This document shows, one piece after another, positions 1 to 17,464 of a stretch of 64,000 nucleotides of DNA. A program made the position numbers and the translations under genes. Under the pieces are notes generated by a model. That model did no database searches, had not been told where the DNA came from, and saw only the letters and a program-made list of their open reading frames with translations. Position 1 is the stretch's first letter, and the number at the start of each line of letters is the position of its first letter. The stretch is from a virus: positions 1 through 64,000 of the IMG/VR virus record IMGVR_UViG_3300025889_017816, one strand, 5' to 3'.

Positions 1-61
1 TAAAAGTTTTTCCTCTTGTAGGACGCTGTGGTATCATATCCTCAAATGTAATGTAACTCAT
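1..61 (-). CDS. Start of an unidentified gene (partial)
   Basis: An open frame starts with ATG at 61 and runs off the left edge of the window, giving MSYITFEDMIPQRPTRGKTF. Its ATG overlaps the TGA stop of the phosphoribosyltransferase gene in an ATGA arrangement, which is a common coupling of translated phage genes. Upstream of this ATG there is only a weak purine-rich run. A second ATG nine codons in is preceded by GAGGAT. Too little is visible to assign a family. Confidence 0.45.
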   Translation of the reverse strand, partial: MSYITFEDMIPQRPTRGKTF

Positions 62-501
62 CTTTCCCACCAAAATTCAAACCAAGTTTTATCAACACTC
101 CTATCTATTGAATCAGCAAAATAATCAGGCTTTATGTCTTGGTCCACATTATAAATCCAACAAGCAATTTTAAGGTCGGTGGAATTATATTCTCCTAGAT
201 TGAAAGATATTTCATGCATTGTAACACCGCTGTCAATGATATCATCAACCAATAAAACTTTTTTCCCAGCAAACAAATCATTAGGTAAATTCCCTAGGTC
301 TCTATCTTTAAAATCACGCAGGGACCATTTAACAACATCCATAGGAACGTTCAGTTTGTGGGACAGTGCTACAGCCAAAGGCAACCCGCCACGAGCAATC
401 CCATATATTTTATGAAATTGTATATTAGATTTTCTGATATCGGAAGCAATAAGATCAACGGCAGTAGCAAACTTTAAAAAATTCATGTAATAGGTTTTCA
501 T
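58..501 (-). CDS. Phosphoribosyltransferase
   Basis: This 147-residue protein has the type I phosphoribosyltransferase signature VLLVDDIIDSGVT near residues 82-94, where the two acidic residues and following loop bind PRPP and magnesium. An earlier stretch (KIYGIARGGLPLAVALS) matches the conserved segment of Gpt/Hpt-like purine enzymes. It probably joins a purine base to PRPP in nucleotide salvage, but the base cannot be read from sequence. The gene overlaps its upstream neighbour by 4 bp. Because the phage also makes 7-deazapurines, an unusual substrate is conceivable, but nothing in the sequence shows it. Confidence 0.85.
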   Translation of the reverse strand: MKTYYMNFLKFATAVDLIASDIRKSNIQFHKIYGIARGGLPLAVALSHKLNVPMDVVKWSLRDFKDRDLGNLPNDLFAGKKVLLVDDIIDSGVTMHEISFNLGEYNSTDLKIACWIYNVDQDIKPDYFADSIDRSVDKTWFEFWWER

Positions 502-12148: not shown

Positions 12149-12610
12149 TTAAATCCTATAGATTGCTGAGTTTGCGCCATGTTCTTTTACTTCACAAGAA
12201 ACACAAAAAACCCGTCCGTTAGTTAAATTCTGTACTAGATGATTTGCAGTATGAAAGGCGTGTTCAGCAAACTTTTCACAACCAACTCCATCCATGATTA
12301 TAACTTTAGCTAGCCCATCCTCTTCAAGTTTCATTAGTCTACTTAAACTAGGATCTTCACGATCTAATATTAGAGTATGATCAAAATTCTGTTCAAGCCA
12401 AGATTTTAATTGTTTAAGACCGCCAAAATCCATAACCCAATTTTTATTATCTAAGATGTGACACCCAAAAACAAATGAAAAACTTAGTGCATAACCATGA
12501 AGTAAAGAACAATGGCTATGATTTGCGTTCGGTTGACGGAAAACACACGACAATCCTTGTTCATGTCCATATGTTTTTGTAGAAAAATATTTAAAAGATT
12601 GCATATTCAT
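12149..12610 (-). CDS. queD: QueD-like 6-carboxytetrahydropterin synthase
   Basis: This 153-residue T-fold enzyme should convert 7,8-dihydroneopterin triphosphate, the FolE product, to 6-carboxytetrahydropterin. Seen: the catalytic cysteine block HCSLLHGY (Cys34, His38), the VMDFGGLKQLK strand, and a late EVKEHGANSAIY segment that aligns with the pterin-binding glutamate region. The usual C-x3-HGH zinc motif reads HGY here, so one zinc ligand is replaced or supplied by His31 or His33 just upstream. GAGGT precedes the ATG at good distance. The ATG overlaps the glycosyltransferase stop in ATGA. It works with folE and queE upstream. Confidence 0.85.
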   Translation of the reverse strand: MNMQSFKYFSTKTYGHEQGLSCVFRQPNANHSHCSLLHGYALSFSFVFGCHILDNKNWVMDFGGLKQLKSWLEQNFDHTLILDREDPSLSRLMKLEEDGLAKVIIMDGVGCEKFAEHAFHTANHLVQNLTNGRVFCVSCEVKEHGANSAIYRI

Positions 12611-13704
12611 TTCAGTACCTCACAAAGTTTATCGCAAGAAAAATAATTTTCCCTTAAGAAATCTCTATTCTTTTCAATCTTATCGCCATACTTATCAAAA
12701 TTATTCATCATATGTTTAATTTTTTCAACTAAGTTAACCTTACTTTTTTGAAATTTTGAAAAAGAAGAAGTCCAATCATACGGGTACATAAAAGAGTCAT
12801 CATACATTTCTGTATATGACAAACGATTTGGAACCAAAGGAATACCCCCTGCTTCTAAAATTTCATAACAACTAATACCTAAAGTCTCTTGTAAGTTTGC
12901 TGAGAATACCATCTTTGCTCTACCCAAAAGATCATAGTATTCCTCCTTTTTTAAATTATTTTCCTGTGCAAACACAAAAGTATATTCTGGCATTTCCTTT
13001 TTTAGTTCACGAAATATTTCTGGTTGTTTTTCAGGAGCTATTCTGTGTGGGAATACAATAATATCTTCTTTTTCTTTTTTTGATAATAACATAGAATATT
13101 GTGTATATTCCATAGGCCAACCAGTTCTTACTATTTTATTGCCTGGCTTATAACGAATTTTTCCTGTTCGTATATCTGTGTCAAGAAGATTATTTAAAAA
13201 TAATTCAATATGAAAATCCGAAGCAAAATAATTATGATTTATTGCTTCAAACAACCCCTTTTCAATATGTCGTAACCAAGGTACATATTTTTTTGCTTTT
13301 GTTTGGTCGATTGTTCTACCAAGAAAATCATGTGGATCATAACTGCCTGCATGCCAAAGAGCATGAATTTTTATATTCGCCTTTAACAAGTCAGCCATAT
13401 ATTTTAAATTTATAATACCTGGATGCCATGCGTCTGCAAAAACAAAATGGTCACCATCTTTAACATCACCCGAATGAAACAATCTTGCTAATGTATCTAC
13501 TTGTGCTGCTTTGTATATGTTCGTAGCAGCAAAATTCAAGAAAGCACCTTTAGTTGTTTCTCCACCACCCAAAGTATTTAAATCAGGGCCATCAATAACT
13601 TTTACTTCATGATTAGTTTTTTCTTTAAGAATCTTAGGGAAATGAGTTTTCCATTCTTTTGTATATCTAGATTCAACAGATTCTAAATCAATTAAGTATA
13701 TCAT
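12607..13704 (-). CDS. GT-B glycosyltransferase in the 7-deazaguanine island
   Basis: The C-terminal half matches GT4-type glycosyltransferases: VFPHRIAPEKQPEIF near residue 216, then MVFSANLQETLGISCYE and ILEAGGIPLVPN, where the E-x7-E type arrangement holds the nucleotide sugar. The N-terminal half has a Rossmann-like pattern. I chose the ATG at 13704, which overlaps the upstream stop in ATGA, giving 365 residues. A GTG lies three codons earlier. Its acceptor is unknown. Sitting between a T-fold gene and queD, it may glycosylate the modified DNA base, as T4 glucosyltransferases do for hydroxymethylcytosine. A role on virion proteins is the alternative. Confidence 0.8.
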   Translation of the reverse strand: MIYLIDLESVESRYTKEWKTHFPKILKEKTNHEVKVIDGPDLNTLGGGETTKGAFLNFAATNIYKAAQVDTLARLFHSGDVKDGDHFVFADAWHPGIINLKYMADLLKANIKIHALWHAGSYDPHDFLGRTIDQTKAKKYVPWLRHIEKGLFEAINHNYFASDFHIELFLNNLLDTDIRTGKIRYKPGNKIVRTGWPMEYTQYSMLLSKKEKEDIIVFPHRIAPEKQPEIFRELKKEMPEYTFVFAQENNLKKEEYYDLLGRAKMVFSANLQETLGISCYEILEAGGIPLVPNRLSYTEMYDDSFMYPYDWTSSFSKFQKSKVNLVEKIKHMMNNFDKYGDKIEKNRDFLRENYFSCDKLCEVLK

Positions 13705-14066
13705 GCGAACCACAGGTTTCTTAAAACAGCACCATTTTCACCATCTTCACTAACACTGACTTCCACATAACGATTAGGATAGGCACCTTCGATATAAAGC
13801 ATTAACTCTTCAGCTAACATTTCACAAGATTTGAAATCAACTTCAAATACCCCTTTGTATAGACTTTCCAATTCTCTCTTGAAAAGAATGAATTCAATAT
13901 CTCTATCATTATGATTCACTGATACACGAACTCTGAAATGAAACATATGTCTGTGTGGGTGACCCAAAAAAGAAACTTCTTCTAATTTAGGATCTTCCAA
14001 TGCTGCTGGATAACGATGTATACCTTCTTTTTGAAAGGTAACCTCAATAAATCTTTTAACGCCCAT
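13701..14066 (-). CDS. Divergent T-fold (QueD-related) protein
   Basis: This 121-residue protein has a T-fold-like order of elements: PHRHMFHFRVRVSV (His-rich strand like the QueD HGH strand), DIEFILFKRELESLY (like the xMDFxxLK strand-helix), SCEMLAEELMLYI, and a late VEVSVSEDGENGAV strand. It lacks the catalytic C-x3-HGH block, so it is unlikely to be a normal QueD. The same arrangement recurs in uncharacterised phage proteins. Position between dpdA and the glycosyltransferase suggests a role in the base-modification pathway. The DpdA-like gene ends 9 bp before its start. Confidence 0.7.
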   Translation of the reverse strand: MGVKRFIEVTFQKEGIHRYPAALEDPKLEEVSFLGHPHRHMFHFRVRVSVNHNDRDIEFILFKRELESLYKGVFEVDFKSCEMLAEELMLYIEGAYPNRYVEVSVSEDGENGAVLRNLWFA

Positions 14067-14075
14067 AATAAACTC

Positions 14076-15344
14076 CTATAGTAAATCCAAAGTTGCTGGA
14101 AGACCATCATTGAGAGATTGTGAAGGGACCGAAGATCTTCCTATCCCATTTTCCCAATAAACATAATCCTCACGATTTTTTATTTTACTAAAACTATCCA
14201 TCGCCTTATACATTTTATCGCCTATAATTTTCTCTGCTAATATAAAATCATTTGCTACAGTATTCAAGTGATTAATAAAGTTAATGGTTGAACCCATGAA
14301 ATAGGCATTAAAAGAAAGAATAGGTGGATTAGGGTCTCCTGTTTTCTTTTGAAATCTTCTAACACTTTCATTCATTGTGTAATGAAACAATTCATCTTCC
14401 ATATCCCATTCAGGATAATGTCTCTTGACATCTTCATTAATGACAGAATACATTGGTCCGTCGTTTGTTGTGAATTCCTTCCCAGGAGTAATCCATGTAA
14501 AGTCAGGACCGTAATATCTTCCCATCTGCACACCTGATGTATGTGTGGTACTATCATAGCTAACAAGAATGTCCTTATATAACCCTGCTCTTATCATAGC
14601 AAGAGTAGGAATCATTCTTGAAACTGAACCAACACCTAGAAGATGAACATGATTAACCTTTTCGAACAAAGGGAGCTGTGTGAAAAAGAAAGCTCTTCTA
14701 CAATCTTCTAAAGCGCCTGTTCCCATACCAGCAGAACCCATGGCAACACCACCTATATGTCCATGTAATTCTTCAGGAATTTCTTCTAATGCATATTCAG
14801 TCCAACGAATATAGGTATCAAGATCATGGCCTTGAACAATGAAAAAAGGTTTAGCTTCAGAATTTTTATTGATAAAGGTTTGTATTTGATCTCTAACATT
14901 TCTCCCAGATTCTCGTGCACACCATTCAAACTTGCTTCTATCAAAATACTTGTTTGTGATATCACCTCTTGTTGCTCTGTCAGCTAAAAGAGAAACAGGA
15001 ATTTCATCAAAGCTCATTGCATAATCTGAATACTCTGCTTGACTTGCATATACCTGTTGTTTTAATTCTGGAGTAATAGAAAGACCAAGGGTGATCATTT
15101 GTAGACCACCTGAATCTGCATATACTTTATTAATACCTTTGTTTCGATATTTACCGTAAAATACTTCACCAAAATGTTTTTCTACATGAGCATTGTAAAG
15201 AAAAGAAAACTCATGATTATGTTTACCACGAATGGTAGCCCATAAATCATTTAACTTACCCAGAAGTTCTCCTGTGTGTGTATCTTTAAAATTGCATCTT
15301 AGAAAAGACAATCCTGAAGCAACATATTCGAATTGTGCTTTCAT
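14076..15344 (-). CDS. dpdA: DpdA-like DNA guanine transglycosylase
   Basis: The 422-residue protein belongs to the tRNA-guanine transglycosylase superfamily: YADSGGLQM at 75-83 (substrate-binding Asp77), FFIVQGHD at 167-174, GGVAMGS at 198-204, LLGVGS at 235-240, and SYDSTTHTSG at 262-271 with the candidate nucleophile Asp264. The zinc-binding C-terminus of bacterial TGT (C-x-C-x2-C) is missing and the protein is divergent from tRNA enzymes. This matches DpdA, which swaps guanine in DNA for a 7-deazaguanine. It is encoded together with folE, queD and queE, which make the base. It overlaps the exonuclease gene by 4 bp. Confidence 0.82.
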   Translation of the reverse strand: MKAQFEYVASGLSFLRCNFKDTHTGELLGKLNDLWATIRGKHNHEFSFLYNAHVEKHFGEVFYGKYRNKGINKVYADSGGLQMITLGLSITPELKQQVYASQAEYSDYAMSFDEIPVSLLADRATRGDITNKYFDRSKFEWCARESGRNVRDQIQTFINKNSEAKPFFIVQGHDLDTYIRWTEYALEEIPEELHGHIGGVAMGSAGMGTGALEDCRRAFFFTQLPLFEKVNHVHLLGVGSVSRMIPTLAMIRAGLYKDILVSYDSTTHTSGVQMGRYYGPDFTWITPGKEFTTNDGPMYSVINEDVKRHYPEWDMEDELFHYTMNESVRRFQKKTGDPNPPILSFNAYFMGSTINFINHLNTVANDFILAEKIIGDKMYKAMDSFSKIKNREDYVYWENGIGRSSVPSQSLNDGLPATLDLL

Positions 15345-15844
15345 GAATTGAGTATCCTTAATAAGTGTTTAGTTTGATGTAATGCATCTTCAAGAGCATT
15401 ATGATAATTTTGTGTTCTGTCTTCTTCTGGAATTTTGATAAGTTCTTTAATTGTTCGATAACATCTATCATCCCAATATTTCCAAGGTCTAATCATACCT
15501 ACTGCTTTGAAAGCATTATCTAAAATTACATTATCAAATCCTGCCCCACAACCCCAAGTAGGTAGAGAAATATTTCCATACCATTCACTGAAGTTATTAA
15601 GTGCATCTTTCAATGAGACATTGTTTTTTCTTAATTCTTCAAAAACGTGTTTAGGTTGTTGGCTCCACCAATAAACCGTATCTTTGGAAACATGAAGACC
15701 ATATTTCTTACAATCTAATACATCGACTGTGCAGTAAAATTGATCAAGAATTCCACCATCAAAAGAAAATTTTACTGCTCCTATAGAACATATAGCTGCA
15801 TTAGATTCCGTACTCATGGTCTCTAAGTCAATCATTACGTCCAT
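15341..15844 (-). CDS. DEDDh 3'-5' exonuclease
   Basis: A 167-residue DnaQ-superfamily exonuclease. It shows MIDLETMSTESNA (Asp and Glu of motif I at 6 and 8), GAGFDNVILDNAF for motif II, and YHNALEDALHQ for motif III, giving the DEDDh set. The layout resembles the Rv2179c/RNase AS or DexA group of single-domain phage exonucleases. The substrate, DNA or RNA, cannot be read. It sits between folE and dpdA with only 2-4 bp at the joins, so it belongs to the 7-deazaguanine operon, although a direct link to modification is unproven. Confidence 0.85.
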   Translation of the reverse strand: MDVMIDLETMSTESNAAICSIGAVKFSFDGGILDQFYCTVDVLDCKKYGLHVSKDTVYWWSQQPKHVFEELRKNNVSLKDALNNFSEWYGNISLPTWGCGAGFDNVILDNAFKAVGMIRPWKYWDDRCYRTIKELIKIPEEDRTQNYHNALEDALHQTKHLLRILNS

Positions 15845-15846
15845 AA

Positions 15847-16548
15847 TTATTCCTTGATTAGTGTCATGAACTCCTGACGAAGTGCTTGATCACGGAAACC
15901 ACCACCCAACTTGGAGGTGATAGTTCTAGAATGAGGATCTTGAATTCCTCTTGCCTTTACACAGAAATGATCGGCATCAATAACAACTGCAACATCAATG
16001 GTCCCAAGAATATAACTCAAAGCATGATAAACCTGTTCGGTTAATCTTTCTTGAATTTGAGGACGCCTTGAAAAATATTCCACAATTCTATTTAACTTAG
16101 AAAGTCCAATTACTTTCTCAGATGGAATATATGCAACATGAGCAACACCATTAATAGTTACGAAATGATGTTCACAAACAGAAGTAACATTGATGTTTTT
16201 TGATAATACCATTTCATCATACATCATTTTATTATCTACTGTAGTGCATTTAGGAAATGCAGATATATTCAATCCTGAAAATAATTCGTTCACGAACATC
16301 TTTGCAACTCGTTTCGGAGAGTCTTGCAAAGAGTCATCAGTAAGATCTAAGCCTAAAGTTTTCATAATATCAGAAAAACTTTTCTCTATCTTCTTAACCT
16401 TTTTGTCAGAAAAATCATCAGTTTCAAAAAAAGGAGTTTCAACACCTAAAGAAGCAAGATGCTTATGTACACGTTGACCTAAATCAGGATCACACTTCTC
16501 TAGTGCATTACGAAGAGCTACGGCATTATATTTGTGTTGCGATTTCAT
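15847..16548 (-). CDS. folE: GTP cyclohydrolase I
   Basis: FolE opens the 7-deazaguanine pathway by turning GTP into 7,8-dihydroneopterin triphosphate. The zinc motif CEHHF lies near residue 124, followed by GLSKLNRIVEYFSRRPQIQERL and a C-terminal DHFCVKARGI with the second zinc cysteine. The ATG at 16548 has a strong GGGAGGT just upstream, whereas the longer frame to 16572 runs into queE and has none. The protein is then 233 residues, close to bacterial FolE. It starts 1 bp after the queE stop. Confidence 0.95.
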   Translation of the reverse strand: MKSQHKYNAVALRNALEKCDPDLGQRVHKHLASLGVETPFFETDDFSDKKVKKIEKSFSDIMKTLGLDLTDDSLQDSPKRVAKMFVNELFSGLNISAFPKCTTVDNKMMYDEMVLSKNINVTSVCEHHFVTINGVAHVAYIPSEKVIGLSKLNRIVEYFSRRPQIQERLTEQVYHALSYILGTIDVAVVIDADHFCVKARGIQDPHSRTITSKLGGGFRDQALRQEFMTLIKE

Positions 16549-16549
16549 T

Positions 16550-17464
16550 TTACCTCCCAATAACGTTGCCAAAAACGTAGCAGTGATTTCTTGTAGCTAC
16601 ATTGTACCCTCTATTCATTGCTTCAATAGCAATGTTTCCTATATCCTCTCTTTCCTGTGAATCTTTTGTAGCTCCAACAGGCATGACCCATACATTAGGC
16701 ATAGGGAAAGGATCAAACTTTAATCTAATATTATTTAGGTGTTTGTCAAGTTCTAACCAGTTGTTTATTGTTCCATTACATACAAATTTAAGTATACTTG
16801 TTACACCATAACTCAAAGTAGAATATGAATGAATTATTTCGGGGTCTACTACATTTTGCTCACCCGATACTGTGAATAATTTAGGACTCATTGCAAAATG
16901 CCAACGCCTACCTCCTAAATCACGAAAGCCACCTGGTCTAGTTAAGAATTCTTTTAATTCATCTGTTATGGTTTTTGTAGCATTAGTTTCAACCGTAACA
17001 ATTTCAGGCATATTATTTCTTGCTTTCAATTCTTTAATAATTTCTATCATTGCCTTTTGTTGCATCATAGGTTCACCACCTGTAAAGCAAAGCATGATAG
17101 GTTGATGGGTTAAAGGATGAACAAACAAACCCTCAGGATTATGTTCACTTTTATTTGTTTCTACTAAACGGTCGCAGATAGATTCGACTGTACCATCATT
17201 TGCAAGATGCTTATATTTTACTGACCATGAATAAGAACTATCACAACCAGTTGTCCACACAGGTAATTGTTTCACATCATTAATTCCAGATCCATCAAAA
17301 TCCATATAAGGTAAAACATAACTGGATGGATCAGTTGGGTCTTGTTGACCAAAACCATTACAATTTAAATTACAACCAAAAAAACGAAGCCAAACTGCTG
17401 GGTAACCAGACAGCTCCGCTTCGCCTTGGAAAGAATAAAATATTTCTGAATAACGAATTCTCAT
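16550..17464 (-). CDS. queE: QueE-like 7-carboxy-7-deazaguanine synthase with split cysteine motif
   Basis: This 304-residue radical-SAM enzyme should rearrange 6-carboxytetrahydropterin to 7-carboxy-7-deazaguanine. It opens like QueE (YSEIFYSFQGEAELSGYPAVW, then LRFFGCNLNC) and has TGGEP at 128-132. The cluster motif is unusual. Cys31 and Cys35 are in place, but the third cysteine (in GCDSSYSW, Cys74) comes after an insert of roughly 36 residues, giving C-x3-C-x38-C. The C-D-S-x-Y after Cys74 aligns with the C-D-T of normal enzymes. A sigma70-like promoter lies upstream, and folE follows at once. Confidence 0.88.
   Translation of the reverse strand: MRIRYSEIFYSFQGEAELSGYPAVWLRFFGCNLNCNGFGQQDPTDPSSYVLPYMDFDGSGINDVKQLPVWTTGCDSSYSWSVKYKHLANDGTVESICDRLVETNKSEHNPEGLFVHPLTHQPIMLCFTGGEPMMQQKAMIEIIKELKARNNMPEIVTVETNATKTITDELKEFLTRPGGFRDLGGRRWHFAMSPKLFTVSGEQNVVDPEIIHSYSTLSYGVTSILKFVCNGTINNWLELDKHLNNIRLKFDPFPMPNVWVMPVGATKDSQEREDIGNIAIEAMNRGYNVATRNHCYVFGNVIGR

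Follow-up and report, generated by a model that had tools for sequence, protein, structure and literature searches.

Sugar-decorated 7-deazaguanine DNA as a likely new disguise of phage genomes

We analyzed a 64,000-nucleotide stretch of viral DNA (hereafter the window), which is part of a 119,474-base IMG/VR virus record, and identified a glycosyltransferase gene (GT) within a cluster of genes for 7-deazaguanine DNA modification. The best explanation is that GT is a predicted retaining-type enzyme that is co-produced with the enzymes by which the phage introduces 7-deazaguanine into its DNA, and that it adds a sugar to the 7-deazaguanine put into DNA by a DpdA2-type guanine transglycosylase. 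We give this joint reading a probability of roughly 60%.

The preliminary description of this DNA had placed the gene at 12607–13704 and named no strand. GT is a real gene of the minus strand. The mechanical open reading frame covers 12607–13713 and begins with GTG, whereas the natural start codon, ATG at 13704, yields a protein of 365 amino acids; the plus strand has many stops across the same coordinates. The 4-bp overlaps claimed for the two neighboring genes were also confirmed, as ATGA is read at both ends of GT. The stop of the upstream T-fold gene and the start of GT share positions 13701–13704 (ATG/TGA overlap, TTCGCATGATATAC), and the stop of GT and the start of queD share positions 12607–12610 (equivalent overlap, CTGAAATGAATATG), both on the minus strand. 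The order on this strand is queE (16550–17464), folE (15847–16572), a 3'-5' exonuclease gene (Rv2179c-like/RNase T; 15341–15844, within the same overlapping run), a gene resembling those of tRNA-guanine transglycosylases (TGT-like; 14076–15344), the T-fold gene (13701–14066), GT and queD (12149–12610), and genes for T4-type recombination nuclease subunits lie 3' of queD. Profile matches identified FolE (GTP cyclohydrolase I), QueD (6-carboxytetrahydropterin synthase) and QueE (a QueE-like radical SAM enzyme, 7-carboxy-7-deazaguanine synthase) in the cluster. The window QueE begins with CX3C and contains a long insertion ahead of a third cysteine (TTGCDSSYSW), and both features are also present in other family members.

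No confident name for GT was returned by Pfam, PHROGs, NCBIfam, PADLOC or a phmmer search of the PDB, so we used profile, fold and neighborhood evidence. For the window protein, neither PHROGs nor the phmmer search yielded any match. Its score to the Pfam family Glycos_transf_1 (PF00534) was 21.2 bits against a cut-off of 26.4, and the divergent homologue of Xanthomonas phage X1 reached 45.5 bits, above the cut-off. Because the window protein falls under this cut-off, AlphaFold and Foldseek were needed to assess the GT-B class proposed earlier, and they bear it out. The model, calculated from 53 family members, reached a mean pLDDT of 87 and a pTM of 0.87, and shows the two Rossmann-like domains of the GT-B fold. 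Its best PDB matches in Foldseek are GT4 enzymes (E ~1e-8, TM ~0.6), namely BshA, MshA, PglA and synthases of the trehalose/sucrose-phosphate type. H118, R221, K226 and E273-x7-E281 are invariant in 57 of 57 GT homologues; from GT4 enzymes such as PimA, we take these to be the catalytic and donor-binding residues. On the predicted structure, GT is thus a GT4-type GT-B glycosyltransferase with the GT4 active-site set intact. It shares the fold and the GT4 catalytic residues with BshA and MshA of bacillithiol and mycothiol synthesis, but these are 10–14% identical to GT (TM ~0.6) and act on malate or inositol phosphate.

Two further features are conserved in the family. The N-terminal signature E8-x2-E11-x-R-Y-T-x2-W18 is peculiar to it, and a loop with the sequence S-Y-D-P-x-D-F-L-G-R contains the sole stretch of the model with pLDDT <50 (residues 123–129), which may fit a flexible acceptor loop. 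The isoelectric point is acidic to neutral (family median 6.0, window protein 6.9), unlike that of a typical DNA-binding protein, and would be compatible with sugar transfer ahead of insertion. In that case, the substrate of GT would be free 7-deazaguanine, as base or nucleotide, and DpdA2 would insert the sugared base. BshA and MshA, the GT4 matches of best E-value, have small-molecule substrates, and a phosphoribosyltransferase gene occurs in many clusters, both of which are in keeping with this order of events. However, pockets of TGT-type enzymes are generally tight and queuosine in tRNA receives its sugar after insertion, and we consider the early addition of the sugar unlikely.

The phosphoribosyltransferase gene of the window lies far from GT (58–501, minus strand), but its homologues in the close relatives L012, L013, L015 and L083 are flanked by queE and folE. 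It is a probable distant member of the pathway and may recycle the guanine released by DpdA2.

The assignment of the TGT-like gene to the DpdA2 type (phrog_10773) relies on homology and conserved residues. By tblastn, the window protein aligned to positions 238041–238748 of Vibrio phage nt-1 (E 3e-37, 38% identity over 56% of the query), and this locus is YP_008125322. Hutinet et al. (2019, PMC6884629) named that protein DpdA2 and reported dPreQ0 in nt-1 DNA. All PDB matches of the window DpdA2 profile are tRNA-guanine transglycosylases, and a DSGG motif and one aspartate are invariant. The nt-1 system resembles the window cluster in that genes for FolE, QueD, QueE and DpdA2 share a region. 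It differs in that the window record lacks a QueC match and has an added QueD-like T-fold protein as well as GT.

The T-fold protein (phrog_17812, 121 amino acids) was correctly named at the outset: its model matches Escherichia coli QueD (E 5.8e-6, TM 0.72) and has the order beta-beta-alpha-alpha-beta-beta. It keeps H17, H38, H40 and E107, and has the motifs C-E-x2-A/S-E/D and E-x-G-x-N in common with phage QueD. It lacks the cysteine of the phage QueD motif HC-x3-HGY and has its own invariant Cys81 instead. The T-fold protein is therefore probably a QueD paralogue that catalyzes a different reaction on a related ring. We rejected it as the QueD of the window pathway, because the true QueD is adjacent and the T-fold protein is without the QueD cysteine. 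It may correspond to the 7-carboxy-7-deazaguanine decarboxylase DpdL (Cui et al. 2023).

The T-fold gene also occurs without GT and without DpdA2, in phages phiST, Ahp1, RHph_I1_18, D479, MA9V-3 and Bakedbeans, whereas a DpdA2-like gene is present in every GT phage that was searched for it. GT thus tracks DpdA2 and not the T-fold gene. In Vibrio phage Bakedbeans (L095:6212-7363), the T-fold protein carries a long fused N-terminal region that may contain a helix-turn-helix. In Rhizobium phage RHph_I1_18 (L092:8417-9241), the gene after the T-fold gene is annotated as an Appr-1-p processing enzyme, and Pfam returned no confirmation of a macro domain.

To assess how consistently these genes occur together, we retrieved GT relatives from IMG/VR and confirmed at least 580. 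Among the best 80 of these viral loci, 30 have full flanks (≥ 7 kb on each side of GT). All 30 have DpdA2-like, T-fold and queE genes on the GT strand, and folE is also present in 27 of them. With a looser flank requirement, the T-fold gene was found in 70 of 70 loci, queE in 52 of 52 and DpdA2 in 56 of 56. The 80 contigs are nearest relatives, and these counts do not represent independent samples. The isolates weigh more than the contig counts because the gene order differs in each of them. It is T-fold-GT-folE-queE in Sinorhizobium phage Phosso, with DpdA2 ~170 kb distant, and DpdA2-GT-T-fold-phosphoribosyltransferase-queE in PA5oct and Paride. Acidovorax phage ACP17 has the order queD-folE-DpdA2-GT-T-fold-queE, and Xanthomonas phage X1 has folE-GT-DpdA2-T-fold-queE. 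The order in Synechococcus phage BUCT-ZZ01 is queE-phosphoribosyltransferase-queD-folE-second GT-DpdA2-T-fold-GT-exonuclease. The gene set persists through this reshuffling and is therefore functionally tied. Conserved co-occurrence strongly supports a functional link of GT to the 7-deazaguanine pathway. The preliminary interpretation, which had grouped GT with the base-modification enzymes on account of the gene overlaps and had pointed to T4 for glucosylated DNA bases, thus holds for the pathway (30 of 30 full-flank contigs and shuffled orders in unrelated isolates), while its comparison with T4 stands as an analogy only.

The same counts bear on the possibility that the operon adjacency is due to chance and that GT targets a capsid or tail protein, a lipid or lipopolysaccharide. 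Most phage GT-B enzymes of the same fold are generally assigned surface or unknown roles, and BUCT-ZZ01 encodes a second, different GT-B in its cluster, so such a target is conceivable. It is at odds with the co-occurrence with DpdA2, the T-fold protein and QueE in 30 of 30 loci, kept through gene shuffling, and with the family's own conserved N-terminal motif (E-x2-E-x-RYT-x2-W), and we regard it as improbable. The second GT-B of BUCT-ZZ01 (L093:4364-5707) lies in the same 7-deazaguanine cluster and makes a two-sugar modification possible there. A kinship between it and GT is unsupported past the common fold.

The gene content varies around this core. In the freshwater group (L009–L087), almost all loci are without detectable QueD and yet keep FolE and QueE; QueD was detected in only 2 of the 30 full-flank loci. 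A 183-amino-acid protein of no recognized family (L054:6776-7324 and homologues) is encoded next to DpdA2 in ACP17 and in the freshwater group, where 31 of the 32 long loci selected have it, and is absent from the group of the window. Of the 32 freshwater-group loci selected, 28 encode a cupin (PHROG 'cysteine dioxygenase'; L035:10280-10762 and homologues) between folE and queE.

The GT family is nearly phage-only. A search of a species-level genome collection gave three matches, weak or fragmentary. Two lie on short MAG contigs that also encode the T-fold protein and probably come from viruses; the third is weak and partial. The annotated isolates with GT are Phosso, the PA5oct/Paride/Callisto group of Pseudomonas aeruginosa phages, ACP17 and X1, and BUCT-ZZ01 was added through a profile search. 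A distant homologue set in the PhiXhv phages (27% identity over 62%), which lacks the T-fold protein, was excluded from the family counts. The DpdA2-like gene of these phages encodes 573 amino acids (E 9e-9). In Xanthomonas phage PhiXhv-15 (L006:7138-8852 and L114), the distant homologue adjoins a GFAT-like aminotransferase gene and a GlcNAc-malate deacetylase-like gene, a neighborhood that hints at an amino-sugar modification. The PhiXhv-15 genome also encodes a TGT-like protein and QueD.

The distribution of QueC is informative about the starting base. With PF06508 at E ≤ 1, we detected no QueC in the window's 119 kb record, which is possibly incomplete. Phosso, PAC2, ACP17 and BUCT-ZZ01 gave no QueC match either; X1 has only one below the cut-off. 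By contrast, nt-1, Marzo and pf16, which have DpdA2 and gave no match in a GT profile search, encode QueC within the cluster. The absence of QueC from the GT phages and its presence in the GT-less DpdA2 phages suggest that GT phages begin from 7-carboxy-7-deazaguanine (CDG) and not from preQ0. The rule is not strict, because PF06508 matched 2 of 13 viral contigs in part, with scores above the cut-off, and the association of GT with missing QueC is suggestive only. A QueC of the host could also contribute in GT phages. The GT-less DpdA2/QueC cluster of Stenotrophomonas phage Marzo contains a gene annotated as an inositol-1-phosphate synthase (L102:3520-4770).

FolE, QueD and QueE make CDG in an established pathway (PMC13329287), and by homology the window enzymes would do the same. 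The QueD-like T-fold enzyme probably processes CDG, and DpdA2, as its homology implies, would put the processed base in place of guanine in phage DNA after replication. GT would then move a sugar from a host nucleotide-sugar to the inserted 7-deazaguanine. The product would shield the DNA from nucleases, in analogy to the glucosylated hydroxymethylcytosine of T4. In this scheme we infer the DNA base as acceptor, the donor sugar, the acceptor atom, the timing and the protective role.

The main weakness of this model is its chemistry. CDG, preQ0 and 7-deazaguanine are without an alcohol hydroxyl, so the sugar would need another site: a carboxylate, an amide, carbon 7 or a group that the T-fold enzyme introduces. 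The attachment needs an ester, an N- or C-glycoside or a further intermediate. The same gap is the rationale for a scenario in which GT belongs to the pathway but its sugar is missing from the final product, either because it serves only transiently, for activation or protection, or because another base is the acceptor. The presence of an extra T-fold enzyme in every full-flank cluster is in keeping with this scenario. Against this, the scenario is invoked purely to fill the acceptor gap, and we know of no precedent for a transient sugar in a 7-deazaguanine pathway; we judge it quite unlikely. A sugar retained on the DNA base, our preferred reading, can be specified further at about even odds: a widespread, phage-specific GT4-type enzyme would make a new class of DNA hypermodification with a sugar on 7-deazaguanine, possibly a glycosyl ester of CDG or a C-glycoside on 7-deazaguanine, and perhaps with a second sugar added by the second GT in BUCT-ZZ01.

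We compared GT to known enzymes that attach sugars to nucleic acids. Like GT, the T4 alpha- and beta-glucosyltransferases are phage GT-B enzymes paired with a base-modification pathway. They differ in that GT is GT4-like, with BshA, MshA and PglA as best matches, and in that they act on hydroxymethylcytosine whereas the presumed acceptor of GT is a deazapurine. The top 50 PDB matches of the GT model include no T4-type DNA glucosyltransferase, and PHROGs gave no match of GT to the T4 alpha-GT or beta-GT sequence families. A cyanophage 'DNA alpha-GT' ranks 36th among the fold matches in a viral library.

QTMAN, the tRNA-queuosine alpha-mannosyltransferase of animals, is also GT4-like and adds a sugar to a 7-deazaguanine derivative, and GT would act near such a base as well. 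GT could accordingly modify 7-deazaguanine in tRNA and serve translation instead of DNA protection. The C-terminal motif P-D-R-L-S-Y-x-E of GT may resemble QTMAN, which we treat as a lead only. Unlike QTMAN, however, GT is linked to a DNA transglycosylase, is nearly confined to phages and is without the QTMAN_N domain (PF12038): at E ≤ 10, neither the window's record nor the GT homologues gave a match. PF12038 also gave no match above the cut-off in the window's record, in G001–G003 or in 145 genomes of one phylum, a set in which no positive control matched. A tblastn search of plasmids with a human QTMAN query was likewise negative and is not counted as evidence. In addition, the partner transglycosylase is DpdA2, of a DNA-linked family, and not TGT (PMC6884629), and Hutinet et al. 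detected no QueA, QueG or QueH in their surveyed viruses (PMC6884629). A tRNA target is thus very unlikely, and we retain DNA as the probable substrate.

Sugars in DNA are best known on modified pyrimidines, such as the cytosines of T4 and RB69. In the PMC full text searched, which covers few subscription papers and excludes Cui et al. (2023), no account of glycosylated 7-deazaguanine DNA or of a glycosyltransferase in DpdA2 clusters came up. The parts of the system are of known kinds, and their combination is new if the chemistry holds. If the model is true, at least hundreds of phage contigs, as well as the Pseudomonas phages PA5oct and Paride, would have a sugar-bearing deazapurine, which would be both a DNA nucleoside of a new kind and a novel coat against restriction. 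Several recurrent 'hypothetical' genes of the clusters would then acquire a function.
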